The position numbers were made by a program, and so were the translations under genes. From Deltaproteobacteria bacterium (lineage in GTDB: Bacteria > Desulfobacterota > Desulfuromonadia > Geobacterales > Pseudopelobacteraceae), in the NCBI GenBank assembly GCA_021779135.1, contig JAJYBH010000010.1, forward strand, positions 1-44,655: 44,655 nt of DNA. Reading direction: 5' to 3'. Positions 3,001 through 43,052 of the stretch are shown here, piece after piece. Each line of letters begins with the position of its first letter. Positions within the stretch are counted from its first letter, which is position 1. The notes below the pieces were generated by a model. It saw only the letters and a program-made list of their open reading frames with translations. It ran no database searches and was not told the origin of the DNA.

Positions 3001-6000
3001 CCGCTGACTGTTCGGCAAACATCCAGACCTATACGGTATCCTTTGTCAGCGGCGGTAACGGCAGCCTGTCCGGGACAGTCAGCCAGACAATCAATGCAGG
3101 GGCCGCGACATCAGTTGTGACCGCTGTTCCGTCCACGGGCTATCATTTCGTCAACTGGACCGGCACGGGCGGATTCGTCACTACCACGACCAACCCGCTA
3201 ACAGTCGCCAATGTCGCGGCAGATCTGACGATTACTGCCAATTTTGCTCCTGATACTGTCAACGGTGTCTGCGGTACATCCAATGGAAGCTCTTTTGCCC
3301 TGGCCCCCGACAGCAACCTCTGCACAAACGGCATCCCGACATCTGTGACCGGCAGCGGCCCGTGGACATGGAGTTGTACGGGAATAAATGGCGGTACGAC
3401 AACCGATTGTTCAGCAAATATAACGACTGCAAGCGTGTCGAAGGTTCTCGTCGCGGGAGGGATGTCCAGTAACAGCACGGCACCACCTACGGCAGAGGTG
3501 TTCGACCAAGCCACAGGAACCTGGAGTTCGACGTCAAATACGATCGCCTACGGTACCATCCCGACCGACGGCATTTGCAATGCAAACATGACGCTGCTCG
3601 GCTCCGGAAAGGCCCTTATCGCCGGCGGCAGCTGCGGCGGAGACGATGGGACCACCACCAATGCCACAAGCCTCTATGATCCGGCCACCAATCTTTGGAG
3701 CACGGGCGCCTTAATGGCATACGGCAGGAACAGCTTCGGTCTCGTGACACTTCCCAATGGTGATGCTTTGGCCTTCGCCGGCTGCGCGGGCGGCTGCTCG
3801 GGTCCTAACGTGCTCTGGCAGTATTTCTGGACTGTTGGAGGGACAGCCGAGCTGTACTCCTCTACGAACAACAGCTGGGTCACAAAACATCCGCTCAACA
3901 CGGCCCGTGCAGGAATGGGAGGTCAGAACAGCAAGACGGTCGCCTTGCAGGATGGAAAGGTGCTGGTGTGTGGTGGTAATGATGCCTTCAACACCACTTA
4001 TACCAGCTGTGAGATCTATGACCCTGCCGCCGACGCTTGGACGACCACCGCCGGAGCCTATCCCGAACTCTACGGCCCTAACGGCCTGGTTCTGCTTGAC
4101 ACCGGAAAGGTCCTGTCTGTCCTTAACTATTCGCTCGGAGCGGTGTTGTTCGATCCGGCCACCGGTATGTGGAGCGCAACTGGCGCCCCGTTGAGCATCC
4201 AGACCAACGCACATCTCGTCAAGCTGGGTGACGGCCGCGTCCTCATGACCGGCGGTTTTGTCAACAACTCCGGGACGTACGACACACTGGCAACCGCCCA
4301 GATATATGACCCAACCACTGGTACTTGGTCAGCTACCGGTTCCATGGGCATCGGGCGATACAGTCACTTTGCCGTTCTGCTTGGAGACGGAAAAGTACTT
4401 GCCGGTGGTGGCGTTACCGGAAGCACCACATCAACGTGGGGACTGCCGGTTGTATCCGCCGAGATTTTCGACCCGTTCACCGGCCTGTGGAGCCCGACCG
4501 GCTCTATGTCCCAGCCTCGCTGGAGTAATGTCAACGCCGTGCGCCTGCCGCCCCCCGCAGACACAACGGCGCCAGAAGTCACCTTCGCCCTGCCGGCCAA
4601 TGCCTCCAGTACGACAGTTGGTATTACCACTCTTAGCGCCACCGACAATGTCGCGGTTACCGGCTATTGCCTGAGCGAGACCGACAGCAGCAGCAGCTGC
4701 AATTGGAGCAGCAGCGCTCCGTCGATCTACACCTTTGCAACCGATGGCATCAGGACACTCTTCGCCTTTGCCAAAGACGCGTCAGGCAATATTTCACCAT
4801 CCGTTTCTGCAACAGTAAACATACAGACCGAGAAATTCTTGACTATCACCAAATCAGGTTCCGGGACAGGAACAGTCATCAGTTCGCCTGCCGGCATCAA
4901 CTGCGGAACAACCTGCTCTGCACCTTTCCTCAGCGGGTCGGCAGTGGTGCTATTTCAAACGCCTGACAGCAACGCGGGGTTCAGCTGGTGGGAAGATGCA
5001 TGCAGCGGCACCGGAGACTGTGCCTTCAGCATGTCGACTGACAAAGGAGTTACAGCCAATTTCACTTCATCACCCATGGTGAAGAACAAGAGGACGGGAG
5101 TGGCCTACAGCCTGCTGCAAACGGCATATAGCGAAGCGCTGCATGGCGATACGATCATGGCGCTTTCTACGCTGCCGGCCGCCGGGCTGTTACTTGACGC
5201 GCCTAAAAGCCTTACCATCGAAGGCGGGTATGCTTCCGACTATGCATCCTGCAACGGCCTGACCCCTGTCTTTGGACCGATAACCGTAAAAGTCCTGACA
5301 CAGGTGAGCGGTATTGCCGTCAGGGCCTTGCAGAGCAGCACCAAGACCATCACGGCATTCAGTTTTGCGAGCCCTGCCGTAGAGGGTATTATAGACGAAG
5401 CAACTCATTCCATTACTATAACCGTCCCATCCGGCACAGATGTCACTGCCCTGACTCCGACAATCACCCACACCGGGGCAAGCATCTCCCCTGCAACAGG
5501 GACGCCACGAGACTTCACCAATCCGGCCGTTTATTCCGTTACAGCTGAAGACTCCACGACTCAGGCGTATACGGTAACCATCCAGTTCATGGAACCGTAT
5601 GCACTCCCCACAACCGCAACAGATGTCAGCCTGGGGGCAAATAGTGTGTTGGTCGATGGCAACAGGGCCTACATCACTGAGGGGACAGTATTCAAGGTGC
5701 TCGATGTCAGCAACCCGCTGAGCCCGGTTTTGCTCGGAAGCGTCAACCACGGTTTTACCGATCTGCGCGTTGAGGCCCACGCCATCTTCAACAACATCGT
5801 GTGGTGCGTGAGGTCGTCTTCGGGCGGCTACGGTGAGGCAACTTATGTATTCGGCGTCGATGTCAGCGACCCGGCAAACCTTGTGGTTCGAGGCACGCTG
5901 ACCCTGCAGACATCGTCTTCTCTGCTCGCTAATGTCTCGCTAATATATGCGGGCTATTTGATCGTGCATGACTATAGTCGCAACCTGATCTACGTTATCA

Positions 6001-34718: not shown

Positions 34719-34816
34719 GAAATTAAACCTCAGATATTAATAAGGGGTTAGTTTGGTTTTTGATGTTGTATTTCAATAAGTAGACTTTCTCATATTCGCC
34801 AATTTATTTTGGGGTG

Positions 34817-34874
34817 ACATAACGGGGTGGGAGAACAGCGGCGGTTTTAGGCCGCTGCTTCTGCCTGGTTGGTC
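34817..34874 (-). repeat. Integron-type attC site (attC-1)
   Basis: Read on the minus strand it has these parts. R'' is GACCAAC, then a 6-nt spacer. L'' is GAAGCAGCGG and is separated by a short loop from CCGCTGTTC. A 9-nt spacer then leads to R' GTTATGT. The two arms pair except for one extra G in L'', the extrahelical base that defines attC polarity. It lies 5 bp after the stop of the 98-aa gene, where a cassette attC should be. The GACCAAC core recurs on the plus strand at 35192-35198, the expected other end of the cassette. Confidence 0.8.
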
Positions 34875-34878
34875 GCCT

Positions 34879-35175
34879 CTAGTCGATTTTGCTTGTGCGA
34901 AATTTATCCACGAACCACCCAATGATAAAACCAATTAACCCATACTGGAATGCGCCAAACACCAACAGTAAAATCAAATCAATATAAATATTTTTTAGTC
35001 CGTCCCCGAAAACACCCGCAATTGCCCTAGAGAGAATATCTGCTACTGATGATGCTGGAATTGAAATAACAGCGAAAAACCATGCAGCATCAAAAATATT
35101 TTTGGCTGTCATTACCCCGTAACTAAAATACATTGCAAAAAGTCCTGCAGCAGCAATTGCAAATTTGACTCTCAT
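34879..35175 (-). CDS. Cassette-borne small membrane protein
   Basis: This 98-aa protein has three predicted TM segments (about 5-22, 28-50 and 65-88) and ends in a short basic tail. AAAAGGAC precedes the ATG. The family is not recognised. The gene fills a cassette of about 380 bp (about 34823-35198), with its stop 5 bp from attC-1 and the cassette start 17 bp before its ATG. That is the compact layout normal for integron cassettes. Small membrane proteins of unknown role are common in such arrays. Confidence 0.65.
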   Translation of the reverse strand: MRVKFAIAAAGLFAMYFSYGVMTAKNIFDAAWFFAVISIPASSVADILSRAIAGVFGDGLKNIYIDLILLLVFGAFQYGLIGFIIGWFVDKFRTSKID

Positions 35176-35212
35176 TTTGTCCTTTTATGATGACCAACTC
35201 CCTATTGAGCAG

Positions 35213-35230
35213 TTCACGCGCGCGCGTGAA
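35213..35230. repeat. 18-bp perfect palindrome upstream of the cassette
   Basis: TTCACGCGCGCGCGTGAA is an uninterrupted palindrome just outside the cassette boundary. It could be the stem of a preceding attC-like site or an operator. The rest of 35231-35635 has no gene that I can support. Confidence 0.5.
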
Positions 35231-35355
35231 ATGGTGATCTACCGAAACGGAACACTTAGCTTATGATCATTAAAACACGGGTACTGGATATTTACTCGAC
35301 ATATCTATATCACTCTTTAAGTGTTTTGTAATTATTACTTCCGCTTGGTGACATA

Positions 35356-35410
35356 CAACATGTGTAATTTGGGTACACCCACAGGGCACACTTTTGGTTT
35401 ACACATGTTG
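35356..35410. repeat. 12-bp inverted repeat upstream of the serine recombinase
   Basis: CAACATGTGTAA and TTACACATGTTG are perfect inverted arms separated by 31 bp. The arrangement suits a dimeric protein site, such as a recombinase res subsite or an operator. It lies 226 bp before the recombinase gene. The spacer contains TACACCCACAGGG, seen again at 38667-38679. Confidence 0.5.
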
Positions 35411-35635
35411 AGTGTACTAAGGGTCGAATAAGAAATTAATTTACAACTTTCAAGATGGGTCATAGAACTCAGATACACAGTTTCGATAAACATCAGTGGG
35501 GGTTTTTCTGGTTTATATCAAACTAAAATAACGGTCGTTAACACAGTTCTTTACAATTTACGCAACGTAATGTATTTTAGTTTATATTTAACTATCAAAT
35601 ATGCAAAGTGTGCTTATTTTGGAATGAGGTAAAAA

Positions 35636-36256
35636 ATGGGAAAAATTGTCGGATATATCAGAGTCAGCACATCCCAGCAGGATGTAGAAAATCAAAGACA
35701 TGAAATTCTTGAATGGGCAAGTGCCAAGAAGGTTTTTATAACAGAATGGATCGAATGCGAACTATCTAGCCGCCGGTCCGAGACGGAAAGGCAAATTGAT
35801 AAAATCCGCTCCTTGGAAAAGGGCGACAAGATTATTGTATCTGAATTGTCGCGACTGGGTCGAAGTACAGGACAAGTTATTATGTTGGTGAATGACTTGG
35901 TGAGGAAGGGTGTAAGCATCGAAGCCTTGAAACAAGGCATTTCTATCAAGGCTGGAAATGGAGAGGAGATAGACCAGCAATCAAAGATCATGGTTACAGT
36001 GTTTTCGCTGATGGCTGAATTGGAAAGAGATCTTATTTCACAGAGGACGAAGACGGCTCTTGCAGCGCGGAAGGCCGCTGGAAAGTCCTTGGGAAAACCG
36101 AAGGGACTCAGTTCAAGTAAGCTTGATGCTCACAGAGAGAAAATTGAAGAATTGTTGAAATTCCAAGTAAGCCATGCGGCCATCGCAAGGATGCTCGAGA
36201 TGAGCACAACGGCAGTACGACACTATTGCATATCGAGAGGGTTGAGTAATAAGTAA
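35636..36256 (+). CDS. Serine recombinase (resolvase/invertase family)
   Basis: The 206-aa site-specific recombinase has an N-terminal resolvase domain with catalytic Ser11 in GYIRVSTSQQ and the conserved ELSRLGRSTGQVI and AELERDLISQRTK segments. The C-terminal HTH is RMLEMSTTAVRHYC. Length and layout match Tn3-type resolvases and DNA invertases. GAGGTAAA precedes the ATG. The 12-bp inverted repeat upstream is a candidate site. No Tn3-type transposase is in the window, so it may be a remnant or a stand-alone invertase. Confidence 0.93.
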   Translation: MGKIVGYIRVSTSQQDVENQRHEILEWASAKKVFITEWIECELSSRRSETERQIDKIRSLEKGDKIIVSELSRLGRSTGQVIMLVNDLVRKGVSIEALKQGISIKAGNGEEIDQQSKIMVTVFSLMAELERDLISQRTKTALAARKAAGKSLGKPKGLSSSKLDAHREKIEELLKFQVSHAAIARMLEMSTTAVRHYCISRGLSNK

Positions 36257-36384
36257 GCTGGCTTGATAAGAATGGCAGAAGAGTGAAGATCAGACCAGGT
36301 TTCTTTGTATTCCGCACTGGTGACTGTCGGCATAGAGGAAATCAAGCAATAGCACCTGAAGGCATTTAACAACGATTTATCCGG

Positions 36385-36720
36385 TCAAGGCGGACGGGCT
36401 ATCGTGTCCTGTATCATGCGCTTTGTGACCCCACTGGCGGCAAACTCATTGACGGTAAGGCGTCGCAGGGTTATCTCGTCCTGCATCATCTCGGAGATCA
36501 CCAGAAGCTGTTTCTTGCGCCTCTCCTTGATAAAGGGGTAGCGGTTGACAAAGTAACCGCAAGGAGTCTCTCGATCCTACCAAGCTCGTTTCGATGATCT
36601 CTTACGAGCATCCTGGCATTCCTGACAGAAGCAAGAACGCTGTCAATTACCCATACGGGAATCGGGAACAATGAACCTGCCGCAGAACTCACAATGCTTA
36701 GACAATGGCCACCTCCGGAT
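36385..36720 (-). pseudogene. Degraded mobile-element-associated zinc-ribbon gene
   Basis: One minus-strand frame reads KHCEFCGRFIVPDSRMGN, then TGA, then QRSCFCQECQDARKRSSKRAW, then TAG. It then runs on through GYFVNRYPFIKERRKKQLLVISEMMQDEITLRRL to a TGA at 36385. Small CxxCG...PD.R.G.RQ.SC...C..ARK proteins of this type are often found beside transposases. The two internal stops mark it as dead. The rest of 36257-37070 holds only hairpins. Confidence 0.6.
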
Positions 36721-36965
36721 CTTAAATCCTGGAAACGGTCATACCAAGTTGAAGATGTAAATGGATTAAACAGAAATTGGATCAACAGACGGGAAATAAG
36801 GAAAGACTCCTAAGCCACCACCATGCTGGAAAATAGTGCCGTTTCAATGCGGGCCAACAGTGACTTCTGCCCGGCTGGATCATCTGTTGTGGGAGAGCAA
36901 GAGTGGAATTATAGAAGGGAAATAATATGAAATATCGGTAGTGCCTCAGATTGATGGTAACAAAG

Positions 36966-36995
36966 TTAATGCGGCTGTTCAAACAGCCGCATTAA
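36966..36995. terminator. Perfect 14-bp hairpin upstream of the NYN gene
   Basis: TTAATGCGGCTGTT and AACAGCCGCATTAA are separated by 2 nt. There is no T-run, so it may be a terminator-like barrier or a protein site. A weaker AGCACCC / GGGTGTT hairpin follows at 37021-37044. Confidence 0.45.
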
Positions 36996-37070
36996 TGGGC
37001 TATGCAGTTTTAGCCTGAAAAGCACCCTGCCTCTTTTGGGTGTTCTAAATCACATTTCAAAGGATAAATA

Positions 37071-37916
37071 ATGGACCACAAATCTTCCAATCCACGCTAT
37101 GTCCAACGATTAGATCAGGAAGAGGCTCAAAAGCGTCTTGCGGTCCTGATAGATGCCGATAACGCCCAGGCATCAATTGTTGAAGGGTTGTTTGAGGAAA
37201 TTGCTAAATTCGGCGTGGCCAGTGTCAAGCGTATCTACGGCGACTGGACTGCCCCGCAGCTGATTAGCTGGAAAAAGGTGCTGCTTAACTACTCCATCAA
37301 TCCTGTTCAGCAATTTGCCTACACCAAGGGGAAGAACGCCACCGACAGCTCACTGATTATCGATGCCATGGATCTGCTCTACACCCGGCGTTTCGATGGC
37401 TTCTGCCTGGTATCGAGTGACAGCGACTTCACCCGCTTGGCGTCTCGCCTGAGAGAAGAGGGCTTGACTGTGTATGGCTTTGGTGAAAGAAAAACTCCTG
37501 CGCCATTTGTCTCCGCCTGTGACAAGTTCATTTACACGGAGATTCTCCGCACCCCGGCTCAAACAACTACCGATCCCGCCTCCAGCCCGAAAAAACCTGC
37601 AGCAAAGGGTAGCAGCAAACTTCCTGCAACCACTGCCACAGTCGAAGGAAAACCGCCGGAAGTTTCGGCCCCCATAAAAGCCGAGGTGCCGCTGGATGTG
37701 ATCGCAAAGGTGATCGATGATATCTCCGATGAAAGCGGATGGACGAATCTCGGTCCTGTCGGCAACAATATCAGCAAACTTCGTCCAGACTTTGATCCTC
37801 GCTTGTATAATTTCAAGAAACTCAGTGAACTGATCAAGGCTTATCCTAATAATTTTGTAATTGAAGAGCGCGGGAGTGGTAAGGCGCTGTATGTGAAGAA
37901 CACGAAAGGCAAATAG
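37071..37916 (+). CDS. NYN (PIN-like) ribonuclease with C-terminal OST-HTH/LOTUS domain
   Basis: The 281-aa protein has an N-terminal NYN domain (about 20-160). Its acidic residues match the PIN-like metal site: D28 and D30 in LIDADNAQ, D92 and D98 in NATDSSLIIDAMD, D117 and D119 in SSDSDFTRL. A Pro/Ala/Lys-rich linker (about 163-200) leads to an OST-HTH (LOTUS) RNA-binding domain (about 205-278). This pairing is known from LabA-like bacterial and eukaryotic RNA-processing proteins. AAAGGA precedes the ATG. It is in the accessory island, so an RNA-targeting defence or regulatory role is possible, but this is inference. Confidence 0.88.
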   Translation: MDHKSSNPRYVQRLDQEEAQKRLAVLIDADNAQASIVEGLFEEIAKFGVASVKRIYGDWTAPQLISWKKVLLNYSINPVQQFAYTKGKNATDSSLIIDAMDLLYTRRFDGFCLVSSDSDFTRLASRLREEGLTVYGFGERKTPAPFVSACDKFIYTEILRTPAQTTTDPASSPKKPAAKGSSKLPATTATVEGKPPEVSAPIKAEVPLDVIAKVIDDISDESGWTNLGPVGNNISKLRPDFDPRLYNFKKLSELIKAYPNNFVIEERGSGKALYVKNTKGK

Positions 37917-38087
37917 GGTTGGTCACGGGGGATGAGGAATCATGTTGAAAGAATATTCGCACCCTTCGCGTATTCGCAATTGAGGAAAAGGGATGTTCTA
38001 ACTTTCGTGTGGACTCGATCGCGGCGGAAAATCTGTCGCGCCGGTCAGGGGACTTGCACCCCATAAGTTCGCGCCCATGACGGGCGT

Positions 38088-38138
38088 ACACAAGCGGGTG
38101 GTGCGGTCAAGGGCCGCACACCCTCAGCCCCGTTGGAC
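38088..38138 (+). repeat. attC-like site (attC-2)
   Basis: GGGTGGTGCGG (38096-38106) pairs with CCGCACACCC (38114-38123) across a 7-nt loop with one unpaired G. An 8-nt spacer and the core GTTGGAC (38132-38138) follow. The left core (ACACAAGC) lacks the usual AAC ending. The structure matches the attC plan, but the left core is degenerate. A further GTTGGAA core at 38236 may close a roughly 100-bp empty cassette. Confidence 0.5.
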
Positions 38139-38252
38139 GAGGAAAAAGAAAGATATGAAGCTGGAATACCTCCATAACCAGACGCTCAGGCAATGACCGG
38201 ATGATTAAACTGCCCGGCAGGTCAAGAGCCGCCACGTTGGAAGGAAGAAATT

Positions 38253-38558
38253 ATGATAAAGTAGGCAGATTACTGGATTTCAGAAGTCAGGTACAATGGA
38301 GAACACACTCACATCGATCAAGTAAAAGTGCATGTAGTCAATGATGAGACTATATCGGTTGCTACTGTCTGGAAGCGAGAAAATGTAGTTAAGTCGTTAG
38401 AGAGTGGCAAGAATTTTGTGACAATCATGAAAGGCACCAATGAGAAATGGAAAAAAGACCAACCGGTTTATGTAATCAAAGTCGGTGTCGTTAAGTTTAT
38501 TAAAACTATCGATAACAATAAGGCATCTGACAATCTTGAGAATCTTCCTGAATATTGA
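38253..38558 (+). pseudogene. DUF3892 protein gene with amber at codon 4
   Basis: AAGGAAG precedes ATG 38253. The frame reads MIK, TAG, then ADYWISEVRYNGEHTHIDQVKV...GKNFVTIMKGTN...DNLENLPEY, a full DUF3892 domain. In relatives a Trp commonly lies at this place (KWADYWI), so TGG to TAG is the likely change. Everything after the stop is intact. Translation could restart at GTG 38328, but that would lose the first conserved strand. A GTTGGAA cassette-like core lies 11 bp before the ATG. Confidence 0.65.
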
Positions 38559-38770
38559 TCTGCTCTCTTGGTCGTTTGACCGGTAAGATGGGCCGCCGCG
38601 TAAGCAAGATTGAACCCTTGATTCCGCTCCAATTGAGGTGCGCGTACAGTTGGCCAACATCATCATTACACCCACAGGGTGTGGATTTTAACCCACATTA
38701 AAAAGATGTATATTAGCAAATGTTGACTTAAAATCTGACTAGGGCTAGGTTATTAGCACTAACACATAAG

Positions 38771-38850
38771 TCATCGAAAAGGCACAGCACGGGTAACCGT
38801 GTGTCGCAAAACTACCATCCCGGCGAGGGATAGAGGGGTTACCGAAATGG
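38771..38850 (+). promoter_or_regulatory. GEMM-I (cyclic di-GMP class I / cGAMP-type) riboswitch aptamer
   Basis: The stretch contains the GEMM-I marks in order. GCACAG leads into hairpin P1b, CACGG-GTAA-CCGTG, with a GNRA tetraloop. The conserved TCGCAAAACTACC follows. P2 is ATCCC-GGCGA-GGGAT, and the closing strand is AGAGGGGTTACCGAAATGG, close to that of the V. cholerae Vc2 aptamer. A terminator hairpin follows 22 bp later and a lipoprotein gene after that. By my alignment a G occupies the Vc2 G20 position, which fits c-di-GMP. Geobacter also has variants that bind 3',3'-cGAMP, so the ligand is open. Confidence 0.85.
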
Positions 38851-38871
38851 AAATTATCGTTCTATATCTCA

Positions 38872-38913
38872 GCGCCACGTCTCAATTTGATTTGAGATTG
38901 TGGCGTTTTCTTT
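38872..38913 (+). terminator. Riboswitch expression-platform terminator
   Basis: CGCCAC/GTGGCG and TCTCAA/TTGAGA form a strong hairpin followed by TTTTCTTTT, between the aptamer and the gene start. It is the expected switchable terminator. Confidence 0.85.
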
Positions 38914-38956
38914 TCTGGTGACTAGGTTTGCGGCTTGGTAGAAAGGGGATTGCGGC

Positions 38957-39994
38957 ATGGTACTAAAAAAGCGACAGTCCATGATTCAACTCGTAACGAT
39001 GGTGATGCTGGTGATTTTGGCTGCACTCTGCTCTGGTTGTGAAAGTAAGGGAACATCTTCCGAATACAAGATAGTTGATTCAGGGATATGGACATACTTG
39101 GGATTGGATCAGACGGTCTGGTTAGACAATGACCGTATTCTATTTGAATCAAACAAAACTTTGAAGCCAGGTGGCGGTGCGGCACATCTGACAGTTTGGA
39201 ACATAACTACCGGAAAAATTGAGTCTTCTCACAAAGCTCGTTTGGTTTGTGCACGGAATGGCAATGTTGTTACTGTCGAGAGGGATGAGATGAGTCGCCC
39301 CACCAAGTTCTATCGGGGTACTTTGGAAAACCTGATAGAGCATCCTATGCCTCATTCTGAAATGATGATTGATAGCCTTTTTGATTGTGATTGGGTGCCA
39401 AAGGCAACGTGGGGAGTAGTTCCACCCAGCTATCCATATACTCGGAAGCTTCATGGAGACAACCACTTTGTAACTGTTGATCGCGAAACACGGACATCGA
39501 ACGGAAGGGCAATATATTACGAAAAGTCGGGTTCAGAAGGGATAGAATTGCCAATATATCTCCTTTCATACCGAATTTCCTACAGTGAATTTCTTGACGC
39601 CTACATGGTTGATAATGGCATATATGACCCCGCAAATTCGGAAAAAGGGGGGTTCAAAGTTCTTGAGCGGAACGGAAACCTAAGAGACGTGCAAATGCCA
39701 AAGTCGATGCTCATAGGGAAACAATACATATACCCTCTGAAAAATGGATATCTTTCTGAATACAGGGATGGGAAACATTTGACCGGCAATCCTTTTGATT
39801 GTGGCCTGTTGCTGTTGCAGGGAGAAAAAGTGACCCGTCTGATTGTCGGTTCCATACATGGCGTCAGCATCTCTCCCGATGGGTGCAAGGCAGCATTTAT
39901 ACATTCGCGCGATTCAAACGAATATTTTTCCCAGAAGAAACCATATCGTACTGTTAAATTTATCAACTTTTGTAAAGGAGAAACTAAGCCATGA
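38957..39994 (+). CDS. Riboswitch-controlled putative lipoprotein, beta-propeller-like
   Basis: The 345-aa exported protein begins with a TM-like signal (QLVTMVMLVILAALCSGCES). Cys28 in CSGC is a likely lipidation site, although the -3 residue is Cys rather than Leu. The body is rich in short beta-strand units, with an SPDG motif near the end (ISPDGCKAAFIHSRD) as in WD40/PD40 propellers. No known family is recognised. GAAAGGGG lies before the ATG. The upstream GEMM-I aptamer plus terminator means its expression should respond to a cyclic dinucleotide, which fits a surface or envelope function. A small ORF overlaps its stop. Confidence 0.75.
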   Translation: MVLKKRQSMIQLVTMVMLVILAALCSGCESKGTSSEYKIVDSGIWTYLGLDQTVWLDNDRILFESNKTLKPGGGAAHLTVWNITTGKIESSHKARLVCARNGNVVTVERDEMSRPTKFYRGTLENLIEHPMPHSEMMIDSLFDCDWVPKATWGVVPPSYPYTRKLHGDNHFVTVDRETRTSNGRAIYYEKSGSEGIELPIYLLSYRISYSEFLDAYMVDNGIYDPANSEKGGFKVLERNGNLRDVQMPKSMLIGKQYIYPLKNGYLSEYRDGKHLTGNPFDCGLLLLQGEKVTRLIVGSIHGVSISPDGCKAAFIHSRDSNEYFSQKKPYRTVKFINFCKGETKP

Positions 39995-40125
39995 TAACCA
40001 GCGAACAAGCAAGGATTCTAGCATCTTCAAGTCATGCATCTTCTGGTGATTCCCCTGTGCCGGTTAGGTACGAGCGTGTCAACTCCGTTAGCAATATTGG
40101 CAATAACATATTTTGTGGTTTATAA
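39991..40125 (+). CDS. Small ORF translationally coupled to the lipoprotein gene
   Basis: The ATG overlaps the lipoprotein stop (ATGA) with AAAGGAG about 10 nt upstream. The frame gives 44 aa (MITSEQARILASSSHASSG...NNIFCGL). A one-base shift near the end would extend it into a hydrophobic TM-like segment (FITLFSIIYVGCSLAGACF). It may therefore be a frameshifted small membrane protein. No family is recognised. Confidence 0.4.
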   Translation: MITSEQARILASSSHASSGDSPVPVRYERVNSVSNIGNNIFCGL

Positions 40126-40194
40126 CTCTTTTCTCGATTATTTATGTTGGTTGCTCTCTGGCAGGGGCATGCTTTTGACTCACCAAAGCAGCCA

Positions 40195-40243
40195 CTAGAG
40201 CCGATTCGCTGAAGCTTTCTGCTCAGCGGCAATACCGTTATGT
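40195..40243 (+). repeat. Possible attC-like site (weak)
   Basis: The stem CGCTGA / TCAGCG (extendable by ATT / AAT) is followed by a 7-8-nt spacer ending ACC and the core GTTATGT, the same R' core as attC-1. The left core CTAGAGC is poor. It marks the start of the cassette that carries the 175-aa gene. Confidence 0.4.
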
Positions 40244-40256
40244 AAGGAACAACGAC

Positions 40257-40784
40257 ATGAATGAAAACAGCATTGCAGATAATCCTGATTTGGAGATTAA
40301 TTTCATACCTAATCCAAAACTCACTCAGGCCTTTTATGTATTTGGTGGTGGTGGCATTTTTTGTTTGGTGGGTGCCTTAAATGCGAAATCACTTTATCAA
40401 GGATTGTATCTGGGTATAGGTGCTATAGCATCGTTGTTTACTGCTTATAAGAGTCGACAAGCGATAGATTTTGAAAACAACCCTTACTTAGTTATCTCAA
40501 AGGAAGGAATTGTGTTAGCCACTTTGAGTAGAGACATTATCAAGTGGGGAAACATTTCAACTATAAAAAGAAAAAAAGGCCCCTTAGGTGAAATGCTTCA
40601 AATATCATTAAAAGACAAAAGCATAATTGCTAATAACCAATCTTTTTACCAGAAATGCATTGAGACACCAGATAAAATTATTAATGGCAGTGACATATCA
40701 ATAATATTTACCCCTCTTTCTCATACTATTGATGAAGCTATTTCTGAAATAGAGAAGCATTACCTTGACAAAGTGAGTGCATAG
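40257..40784 (+). CDS. Cassette-borne membrane protein with PH-like domain (STM3941-like)
   Basis: The 175-aa protein has two TM helices near the N-terminus (about 25-42 and 48-65). A soluble PH-like region follows (NNPYLVISKEGIVLATL...IIKWGNISTIKRKKG), resembling the STM3941/YcxB-type membrane-anchored PH group. That assignment is tentative. AAGGAAC precedes the ATG, and the gene starts 20 bp after a GTTATGT core. Its stop codon overlaps a weak R''-like core (GCATAGC), consistent with a tightly packed cassette. The base composition is AT-rich compared with the core genes. Confidence 0.65.
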   Translation: MNENSIADNPDLEINFIPNPKLTQAFYVFGGGGIFCLVGALNAKSLYQGLYLGIGAIASLFTAYKSRQAIDFENNPYLVISKEGIVLATLSRDIIKWGNISTIKRKKGPLGEMLQISLKDKSIIANNQSFYQKCIETPDKIINGSDISIIFTPLSHTIDEAISEIEKHYLDKVSA

Positions 40785-40847
40785 CCATCGGCGGCAGTCG
40801 GTCAGCACAAAAGACCGCGCCGTCTCTACGCCTCACTACCGTTGGAA
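40779..40847 (+). repeat. Possible attC site (attC-3), imperfect
   Basis: GCATAGC (a 5/7 match to ACATAAC, the complement expected from the cassette start GTTATGT) is followed by CGGC...GGTC / GACC...GCCG hairpin arms. The spacer TCACTACC and the core GTTGGAA (40841-40847) come next. The arms are asymmetric. The right core is well supported because its exact complement lies at the end of the next cassette. Confidence 0.45.
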
Positions 40848-40901
40848 GCGTAATAACTCAACAATAATCGTAGTAAGCGTCATTTTACCAAGGAGATAGC
40901 G

Positions 40902-41594
40902 ATGGACCCTTCTGCGCTTGATGGACTCGGCTTCCTCTTTGTATTCTTGGTACTTGGGTTGATATATATCGGGTATCCCATACTTTCAATAATGATAGGA
41001 GCACTTTTAAAACGAAAATTAACATCAAACGGCTATGGCAGTCGAATCTCCTGGACCATGGGCGTTGTGATAGCATTCACGTTACTGGCAATTCCTTTTA
41101 TTGATTATCCTTACAAGAGATATTTGCTAAAGGAATATTATTCTCAGGATGGCGGGTTCCATATTTCAAGAGTGGTAACTGGAGTTGCTGGAATACATGG
41201 TTTGCGTTACGCTTGCGACTATGGATACCAATATGGGGAGGAATATTTAGGAACGTCTAAGGAGAAATCTTTGTGGCGTTATCGTAAAGCCCCACAGGGC
41301 AATAACCGAGGAAAATATTTAGAAGAAAAAAACGTCAATCCCTCGCCTTATGGATTTAGGAAGATACGTACCCAGAAAGAAAGCTCCATTTACCGTGTAG
41401 ATTTGCAAACGTATGTCACCAGTACAGGAGAGGAACTCGGTAGATATGTCTATTACGAGAACGTCCCAGATAAAGACTCTAGTATATCAATTAACTCCTT
41501 TCGTATTTGGATGAGAATGTCTTATCCAAACATGAAAAGCGGGTACTATATGCATTTGAGGGAATTACTTAATAAAACATTAATTCCAAGTTGA
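40902..41594 (+). CDS. Cassette-borne hypothetical membrane protein
   Basis: The 230-aa protein has two N-terminal TM helices (about 10-36 and 49-66). A soluble, Tyr-rich C-terminal region follows (about 75-230; RYACDYGYQYGEEYLG, IYRVDLQTYVTSTGEELGRYVYYENVP). I do not recognise the family. AAGGAG precedes the ATG. It is the only gene of a cassette running from the GTTGGAA core at 40841 to the attC at 41618-41675, about 830 bp, with both ends well defined. Confidence 0.65.
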   Translation: MDPSALDGLGFLFVFLVLGLIYIGYPILSIMIGALLKRKLTSNGYGSRISWTMGVVIAFTLLAIPFIDYPYKRYLLKEYYSQDGGFHISRVVTGVAGIHGLRYACDYGYQYGEEYLGTSKEKSLWRYRKAPQGNNRGKYLEEKNVNPSPYGFRKIRTQKESSIYRVDLQTYVTSTGEELGRYVYYENVPDKDSSISINSFRIWMRMSYPNMKSGYYMHLRELLNKTLIPS

Positions 41595-41617
41595 CTACGA
41601 AGTAAAAGAGAAGAATA

Positions 41618-41675
41618 TTCCAACCAGGCAGAAGCAGCGGCCAAAAACCGCCGCTGTTCTCCCAAACCGTTGGAG
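41618..41675 (+). repeat. Integron-type attC site (attC-4)
   Basis: R'' TTCCAAC is followed by a 6-nt spacer, GAAGCAGCGG, a loop, CCGCTGTTC, a 9-nt spacer and R' GTTGGAG. It is 58 bp, like attC-1, with the same arms and the same extra G. R'' is the exact complement of the GTTGGAA that opens this cassette at 40841, as expected if the cassette was once a circle. Confidence 0.82.
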
Positions 41676-41681
41676 ATAACT

Positions 41682-41969
41682 TTGGAGACTCAAACGAAGA
41701 AGAATATTGTTCCTATTCCTACATGGGCGTGGTTTGCTGCAGCTGCCATTATGATTCTAATTGGCATCGTCCAAAGTCATATGGCTGTTCATGGTTTTAT
41801 GAATGATGTGGCAATTGGAAGAAGCAATCATGTTTATATTCGTGCAGAACATCCATATAATTTTTGGGTATATAACATTTCTCATATTTTTTGTGGAATA
41901 TTAGGCTTTATACTTGCGATATTTTCTTCGTGGTCTGGTTACAAAAAAATAAAGTTTAAAGCTTCTTGA
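41682..41969 (+). CDS. Cassette-borne small membrane protein, TTG start
   Basis: The 95-aa protein has two TM helices (about 15-33 and 67-85) with a short basic end. No family is recognised. I place the start at TTG 41682, because the GGAG inside the attC core (GTTGGAG, 41669-41675) then lies 6 nt upstream as ribosome site. A TTG at 41670 in the same frame would lie on the core itself. Its own attC is not clear; GTTCCAAT with a CGGG/CCCG hairpin near 42070 may be a decayed one. Confidence 0.55.
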   Translation: METQTKKNIVPIPTWAWFAAAAIMILIGIVQSHMAVHGFMNDVAIGRSNHVYIRAEHPYNFWVYNISHIFCGILGFILAIFSSWSGYKKIKFKAS

Positions 41970-42170
41970 GACCCAAAATAAGAATATTTGAAATGGATAA
42001 ACAAGATGTCAAGGTGTGCATGCAATGGAAATAGTAAGATAAGTAAACAAATAGGATGAGAGGCAGTTCCAATCGGGTATCCCGCCAATAATTACTGTTT
42101 TAATATGATTACCTTCTTTAGAGTTTGTGAAGATTTACATTACGACCAAATGCGTCTATCGGCAATCTCA

Positions 42171-43052
42171 CTATCGCCACTGGTTCAGGGCAGTGACAAC
42201 AGGCAGAATAATGCGGGCTCCCTCTATCACGGCCAACAGCGGATTGCCGACAGTTCTGACGCTGATGCCGGTTCGCTCCTCAAACCGCTCACGGATGCCG
42301 GGGATCAGTGCCCCGCCACCGCTCAGCCAGATGCCGCTGTCGATGATCTCGCACCCCAGGCTGTGGGGCAAGTCTCGCAAGAACATGTCAATAGTGCCCA
42401 GTATCTCTTCCACAACCGGTTCCACGGCCGCTGACGGAAACGCCCCCCCGACAGAACCAAGGCTGCTGGAACCGGTTACGGCAACACCATGGGATCGAAG
42501 GAGGGCCTCGGCATCTCCATCGCTGATGGCTGAATCGTTTCGCTCCGCAGTCTGTACGATTTCCCGGCGCATCCTGGCACAACCGCTTCTGACGGCACAG
42601 GTTGCCAGAATCTTGCTGGATTGTATGACCGCGCAATCGGACACCCCTTCACCGATATCGATCACCATCTGGGCATAGGGAGATGAGACGTCAGTCCCCG
42701 CACCGACAGCTGCGGCAAGCGGCTCCGGAATAACGACCACCGAGGAAGCCCCGGCCTTGACAATGGACTCAATCAGCAATTGGCGCTCATTGAGTTTCAC
42801 GTCGCTGGGAGCACAGGCCAGGACTCGCGGACCGACTACACCGAACACCCGCACTTGAGTCAGCAAAGGCTTCAGAAACGCAACGGCCGCATCGCCGTCA
42901 ACAACCACCCCCCCGCGGAGCGCACGCTTGACGATCGTCTCAGAGGGTTGTTCGATCAGCCGGTGCTCGCCGATCGCCACACGCGTGGTTGCCGTGCCGA
43001 CATCCAGGGCAACGTCCTGTCTCCAGAACTTGTGTGATGGTAATAATAACAT
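42171..43052 (-). CDS. MreB-like actin-fold protein (short paralogue)
   Basis: The 293-aa protein follows the MreB plan: phosphate-1 loop VALDVGTATTRVAI, phosphate-2 MVIDIGEGVSDCAVI (normally DIGGGTTD), and adenosine motif IWLSGGGALIPGI. It is about 50 aa shorter than cell-shape MreB, and both the Gly-Gly-Gly and Thr-Thr of phosphate-2 are altered. AGGA precedes the ATG. No mreC or mreD is adjacent. It is probably a divergent paralogue with weak or altered ATP handling rather than the main MreB. Confidence 0.78.
   Translation of the reverse strand: MLLLPSHKFWRQDVALDVGTATTRVAIGEHRLIEQPSETIVKRALRGGVVVDGDAAVAFLKPLLTQVRVFGVVGPRVLACAPSDVKLNERQLLIESIVKAGASSVVVIPEPLAAAVGAGTDVSSPYAQMVIDIGEGVSDCAVIQSSKILATCAVRSGCARMRREIVQTAERNDSAISDGDAEALLRSHGVAVTGSSSLGSVGGAFPSAAVEPVVEEILGTIDMFLRDLPHSLGCEIIDSGIWLSGGGALIPGIRERFEERTGISVRTVGNPLLAVIEGARIILPVVTALNQWR

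Follow-up and report, generated by a model that had tools for sequence, protein, structure and literature searches.

A c-di-GMP-I riboswitch with its own transcription terminator would control an orphan exported protein, probably a lipoprotein, in a Deltaproteobacteria bacterium of the Geobacterales, and the gene and its control region have probably been captured together as an integron gene cassette. The window, by which is meant the whole 44,655-nucleotide stretch of contig JAJYBH010000010.1 (assembly GCA_021779135.1) that was analysed, holds an aptamer recovered by a covariance model, a terminator hairpin found by folding, the gene in order behind them and attC sites in the same region. From this arrangement we infer that the riboswitch forms part of a single cassette and does not lie in DNA trapped between neighbouring ones. 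The control region and gene comprise the following elements.

38723-38751, forward strand: weak sigma-70-like promoter (TTGACT-17-TAGGTT), read from the sequence and under the threshold of the promoter scan
38771-38846, forward strand: GEMM-I (c-di-GMP-I) riboswitch aptamer, by RF01051 model match
38822-38876, forward strand: candidate antiterminator pairing the P2 loop/3' strand with the terminator 5' arm, by folding
38872-38905, forward strand: intrinsic terminator hairpin, by folding (-20.2 to -21.3 kcal/mol), with a U-rich tail at 38906-38915
38957-39994, forward strand: 345-aa exported protein, probable lipoprotein of no known family, by open reading frame and N-terminus
39991-40125, forward strand: 44-aa ORF overlapping the gene end (ATGA), with AAGGAG upstream, by sequence

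The element at 38771-38846 is almost certainly a genuine riboswitch. The preliminary description had read it as a GEMM-I aptamer with a GNRA-capped P1b and a conserved closing strand, and had called for an Rfam covariance-model search. That search, run over the whole window, bore out both points: RF01051 scored 50.5 bits against a gathering threshold of 35 (E 4.6e-07), with a GUAA cap, a GNRA tetraloop, on P1b and the closing strand present. The only other over-cut-off Rfam match in the window was a tRNA. In a permissive scan of 37950-40300, RF03168 (c-di-GMP-I-UAU) was the top family of the clan, with 58.7 bits at 38772-38847, and did not reach its own cut-off of 65.9 bits. The P1 internal loop carries ACA and GUC instead of the conserved AAA and GAC, and the CUAA/uAu receptor positions of the RF01051 P2 are deleted in the match. 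This receptor is common in GEMM-I, and membership does not need it. It is likewise deleted in six of the seven printed alignments of relatives, all seven of which lie above the RF01051 cut-off. In an aligned set of 35 aptamers covering both loop types, both partners had changed at 4 of the 15 predicted pairs. The window aptamer has both the specificity-position G and the ligand-pairing C, these positions being mapped by the model alignment and from published structures.

A search with the leader DNA gave matches in 65 of 293 genomes, including the host, nearly all of them confined to the aptamer; the best relatives' copies were 85-98% identical, some across only about 50 bases. The comparison set held 40 distinct aptamers (the window copy and 39 others), 14 repeats of identical aptamers being counted once and four of the 20 loci of one set (L114, L117, L128 and L132) being dropped for want of a pattern match. 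The consensus places A at both of two P1-loop positions; 25 of the 40, the window copy included, carry C and U there instead. In the other 15 the two bases are A and A (11 aptamers) or A and G (four), the 5' base being A in the alignment of L115, L116, L123, L126 and L130, and no mixed type occurs among the 40. As judged from these alignments, the window aptamer is a member of a tight GEMM-I subfamily whose P1 internal loop has two linked changes. Within this C/U subfamily, the ligand-pairing position is U in 20 of 25 members and C in five, one of them the window copy. The 20 that combine a specificity G with this U (L081-L098, L113 and L110) are candidates for an altered ligand preference. 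The exact core pattern was found in 13 stretches of genome_contigs, all of them Geobacter, Pelobacter, Desulfuromonadales or Deltaproteobacteria MAGs by title, and was absent from the viral contigs searched. A script located a terminator in 15 of the 25 C/U-type members, starting 22-32 bases past the aptamer in 14 of those 15, and detected none in the other 10. Like the window copy, 12 of 20 relatives have TTGAC in the 80 bases 5' of the aptamer. Downstream of subfamily aptamers, the first long frame often has a signal-peptide-like start (by eye). One locus, L095, has three subfamily matches in about 1.2 kb (blastn 3959-4009, 4730-4779 and 5141-5190). The subfamily, in which the loop change is linked and the ligand-pairing base is often U, offers a ready test of GEMM-I specificity rules.

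The controlled gene gave no match to Pfam, NCBIfam or PDB sequences. No relative was found in genome_contigs, viral contigs, plasmids or phages, the single-protein scans of the first two detecting close relatives only. Among the 293 genomes, the only match besides the host copy was a 23-aa stretch resembling the C-terminus of the protein; this fragment adjoins a frame resembling an IS transposase (by eye). A single-sequence AlphaFold model had a mean pLDDT of 33.6. The N-terminus consists of a hydrophobic signal followed by LCSGC, with Cys at -3, a departure from the usual lipobox pattern, and suggests that the protein is likely a lipoprotein. The product had earlier been described as an unrecognised lipoprotein; an orphan exported gene with no family found does stand, and the lipoprotein part is weakened by the non-canonical lipobox. 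The 44-aa ORF behind it had no convincing relative among the fetched loci.

The host encodes two integron integrases, on contigs C32 and C3, with TIGR02249 scores of 375.6 and 345.1 bits (cut-off 265). On C32, attC matches of 32.2, 23.6 and 21 bits lie beside the integrase, the first of them in the model training set, and on C3 no convincing attC match was found. Sites in the window were sought with covariance models and by homology. Model R3 was built from 41 attC sites, all outside the window; its members were gathered with R1, whose nine training sites include the two that R3 finds in the window, so the R3 test is not fully independent. The relevant features of the region are as follows.

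34816-34875, reverse strand: attC site of an opposite-strand cassette (ORF 34879-35175), R3 70.5 bits
38172-38242, forward strand: left attC-like site, R'' CCATAAC ... R' GTTGGAA, by homology
38265-38558, forward strand: DUF3892-like frame whose start codon is unclear, preceded by TAG at 38262-38264, by Pfam
40182-40243, forward strand: right attC-like site, R' GTTATGT, R'' degenerate, by homology
40766-40848, forward strand: attC site downstream of ORF 40257-40784, by homology to an attC on C2
41617-41676, forward strand: attC site downstream of ORF 40902-41594, R3 77.9 bits, E 1.1e-17

For the two attC sites that R3 finds in the window, direct DNA similarity to sites on C6 and C10 gives the same answer, and that at 41617-41676 is 87-94% identical to sites on C6, on C10 and in the window. 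The site at 40766-40848, which models R1 and R3 missed, has 86% identity to the C2 attC across 43 bp (E 5e-9) and scores 41.7 bits with R2, a model trained on it. The riboswitch and gene themselves are flanked by attC-like sites of the same orientation, homologous to places inside other arrays and matched by no model at either end. On the left, 38176-38256 matches L141:6977-7056, which lies between attC matches of an array in genome G094, at 80% identity across 81 bp (E 1e-14); models R1-R3 gave no match at the site. On the right, where no attC covariance model matched either, 40191-40241 has counterparts of 76-88% identity in the host genome (C25) and in relatives, and some of its homologues lie between attC matches of the C10 and G010 arrays; the right-site query was matched in 20 of 293 genomes including the host, a few of them through other short pieces. 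Together the two sites enclose the DUF3892-like frame (PF13031 on 38328-38555, 23.0 bits against a cut-off of 22.3), the riboswitch, the gene and the 44-aa ORF. The stretch that separates the DUF3892-like frame from the riboswitch has no recognised attC; the unit would then be a single cassette of about 2.0 kb, or a pair with a decayed shared attC.

Several further observations concern this region. The TAG within 38253-38264 immediately precedes the conserved beginning of the DUF3892-like frame. A 50-base piece at 38653-38702 has an 85% identical counterpart next to a reverse-transcriptase-like frame (by eye) in genome G009, and a 28-base part of it recurs in G152 (twice) and G168; a group II intron remnant was considered for the missing middle attC, and a permissive Rfam scan found no intron. 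The stretch 38046-38111 is repeated on host contigs C18 (66 bp at 88% identity) and C94 (49 bp at 98%), overlapping a weak attC match on C94 and lying about 0.9 kb from one on C18. The island also encodes a putative RNase with NYN and OST-HTH/LOTUS domains (37071-37916). A divergent MreB-like paralogue (42171-43052) adjoins a hemerythrin protein; it has close homologues (49-60%) in 5 of 19 relatives, the host aside, while distant MreB (31-34%) occurs in 20 of 20.

The proposal of an accessory island between gene cassettes agrees with the attC sites found and with the base composition, which is 0.434 GC across 34801-42000 as against 0.543 across 1-28000. Since the 34816 site is inverted, the region has been rearranged too, and IS21 and a serine recombinase (resolvase) lie to the left of the riboswitch region. 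These nearby elements, and the opposite orientations of the sites at 34816 and 41617, would suit a standard chromosomal GEMM-I gene that came to stand among cassettes through insertions or rearrangements and never moved as a cassette. The same history would fit a riboswitch with no attC recognised directly 5' of it, a left attC-like site that precedes the DUF3892-like frame instead, and other subfamily copies that, where examined, are not near attC matches. It is nevertheless rather doubtful: sites of one orientation stand on both sides, with homologues inside other arrays, the low GC continues through the gene, and the 345-aa gene has no relative in three same-genus genomes. Carriage of the riboswitch by the integron array is the likelier account by a good measure. 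The more specific reading of a self-regulated cassette, in which the promoter, the second-messenger riboswitch, the terminator and the gene would travel as one mobile unit, is somewhat favoured. If true, wherever IntI places the unit, the gene would answer to host c-di-GMP and not to the integron promoter.

Leader RNA would be initiated at the promoter at about 38723-38751. The strong intrinsic terminator claimed at the outset was recovered as a separate hairpin at 38872-38905, 3' of the aptamer and of about -21 kcal/mol; folding of 38866-38910 gave -21.3 kcal/mol with a U-rich tail, and a simple consensus terminator scan missed it. The gene starts at 38957, 51 bases past the terminator stem. 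At low c-di-GMP, the terminator 5' arm could be taken up in pairing with the P2 3' strand, allowing read-through; with c-di-GMP bound, the aptamer would keep P2, the terminator would fold and the gene would be off. The antiterminator pairing is predicted to be favoured once the transcript ends at 38876-38882 (pair probability 0.58-0.68 at 38880). It was no better than with shuffled linkers, which did as well in 269 of 500 cases and, in a second test, were as good in 296 of 1000 dinucleotide and 79 of 1000 mononucleotide shuffles. Across the subfamily the mean z was -0.4, with p<0.1 in only one of 15 members. Antiterminator strength was therefore rejected as a statistical result, shuffles being comparable in window and subfamily, and the antiterminator is offered as a proposal because shuffled linkers often do equally well; for the same reason we infer the OFF direction from the layout.

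An excerpt of PMC9262584 describes two arrangements: in pilM, aptamer and terminator are mutually exclusive and the switch is ON, and in Cd1 the two can coexist and the switch is OFF. The terminator in the window is separate from the aptamer, with no overlap, so both can coexist, which favours an OFF switch as in Cd1. By this analogy, ligand binding probably leads to termination. An ON switch, in which ligand binding favours read-through, is unlikely on this layout, even with an antiterminator for the OFF mode that is not significant and with five of the nine host loci (L005-L009) in which the 3' strand of the aptamer could double as the terminator arm (by eye), the layout of pilM in the same excerpt.

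The host genome has nine GEMM-I matches over cut-off, the window copy among them. The specificity base is A in five (L001 and L006-L009) and G in four (the window, L002, L003 and L005). The A that replaces the specificity G in GEMM-Ib (cGAMP) riboswitches is absent from the window copy, which has G; pocket bases of this cGAMP relative are listed in the part of PMC7288161 consulted. As the specificity base is the c-di-GMP type, c-di-GMP is likely the ligand, and the original wording, c-di-GMP or cGAMP, can be narrowed for this copy, unlike the five host copies with A. The host genome has 19 GGDEF matches, two of them halves of a single frame. Recognition of 3',3'-cGAMP or another dinucleotide is improbable, as the window copy, unlike the A-bearing host copies, retains both the G and the C, although its subfamily has the double P1-loop change and mostly U at the ligand-pairing C position. 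Elsewhere in the host, L008 and L009 (G000 C65:429-505 and 569-645) are two near-identical A (cGAMP)-type aptamers in tandem, each followed by a terminator-like hairpin, with a signal-peptide-like protein with threonine-proline repeats downstream.

The preliminary description had called the switch unusual. GEMM-I is common in the group (54 of 57 genomes searched, host included), and exported proteins are its usual target type; the riboswitch class is known, and what is unusual is the integron-cassette address, together with the subfamily. AttC-like matches occur in 44 of these 57 genomes, again including the host; among the matches listed, GEMM-I and attC lie less than 10 kb apart only on G032 C94 besides the window, at about 5 kb (by eye). 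Spread of the subfamily by integrons was considered and is unsupported: R1 on 20 relatives' loci and R2 on 34 partly overlapping loci found no confident attC (best E 0.21 and 0.11, respectively). Rfam scans of attC-bearing stretches likewise gave no support to the idea that riboswitches are common in cassette arrays. Thirteen such stretches of relatives (141 kb) yielded a single riboswitch, in a stretch whose sole attC match lay about 5 kb away, four host loci yielded none, and no riboswitch lay between attC sites in either set or in 12 further fetched loci.

In the literature searched, no report of a curated riboswitch class within a cassette was found, and a self-regulated cassette would be the first curated-class riboswitch in a cassette array within that literature. 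Cassettes are generally promoterless genes dependent on the integron promoter, according to the abstract of PMC11014356. Finding a genuine riboswitch in an array would establish that ligand-responsive control can be part of a cassette, and such a cassette would plug an acquired exported protein directly into host second-messenger signalling.

Compared with known systems, the window copy shares with GEMM-I (RF01051) an over-cut-off match, the GNRA-capped P1b, P2 and the specificity G, and differs in the ACA/GUC P1 loop, the missing receptor and a short P2 loop. With the Cd1 OFF-switch of C. difficile, as excerpted from PMC9262584, it shares a terminator separate from the aptamer, so that coexistence is possible, and differs in host and target. 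The cGAMP GEMM-Ib riboswitches of Geobacter, as they appear in part of PMC8835794, belong to the same clan, and the host has A-bearing copies of its own (L001, L006-L009); the window copy differs from them in having G and not A at the specificity position. The nearest precedent in setting is the aminoglycoside riboswitch claimed for class 1 integron cassettes, likewise a proposed riboswitch in an integron. According to the sections of PMC9410878 and PMC8876359 available, that claim is contradicted by experiment in the former, and the latter agrees that cassettes carry no aminoglycoside riboswitch. The RNA of that claim is largely the attI site (PMC9410878, in part), whereas the window element belongs to a curated riboswitch class and has its own terminator.
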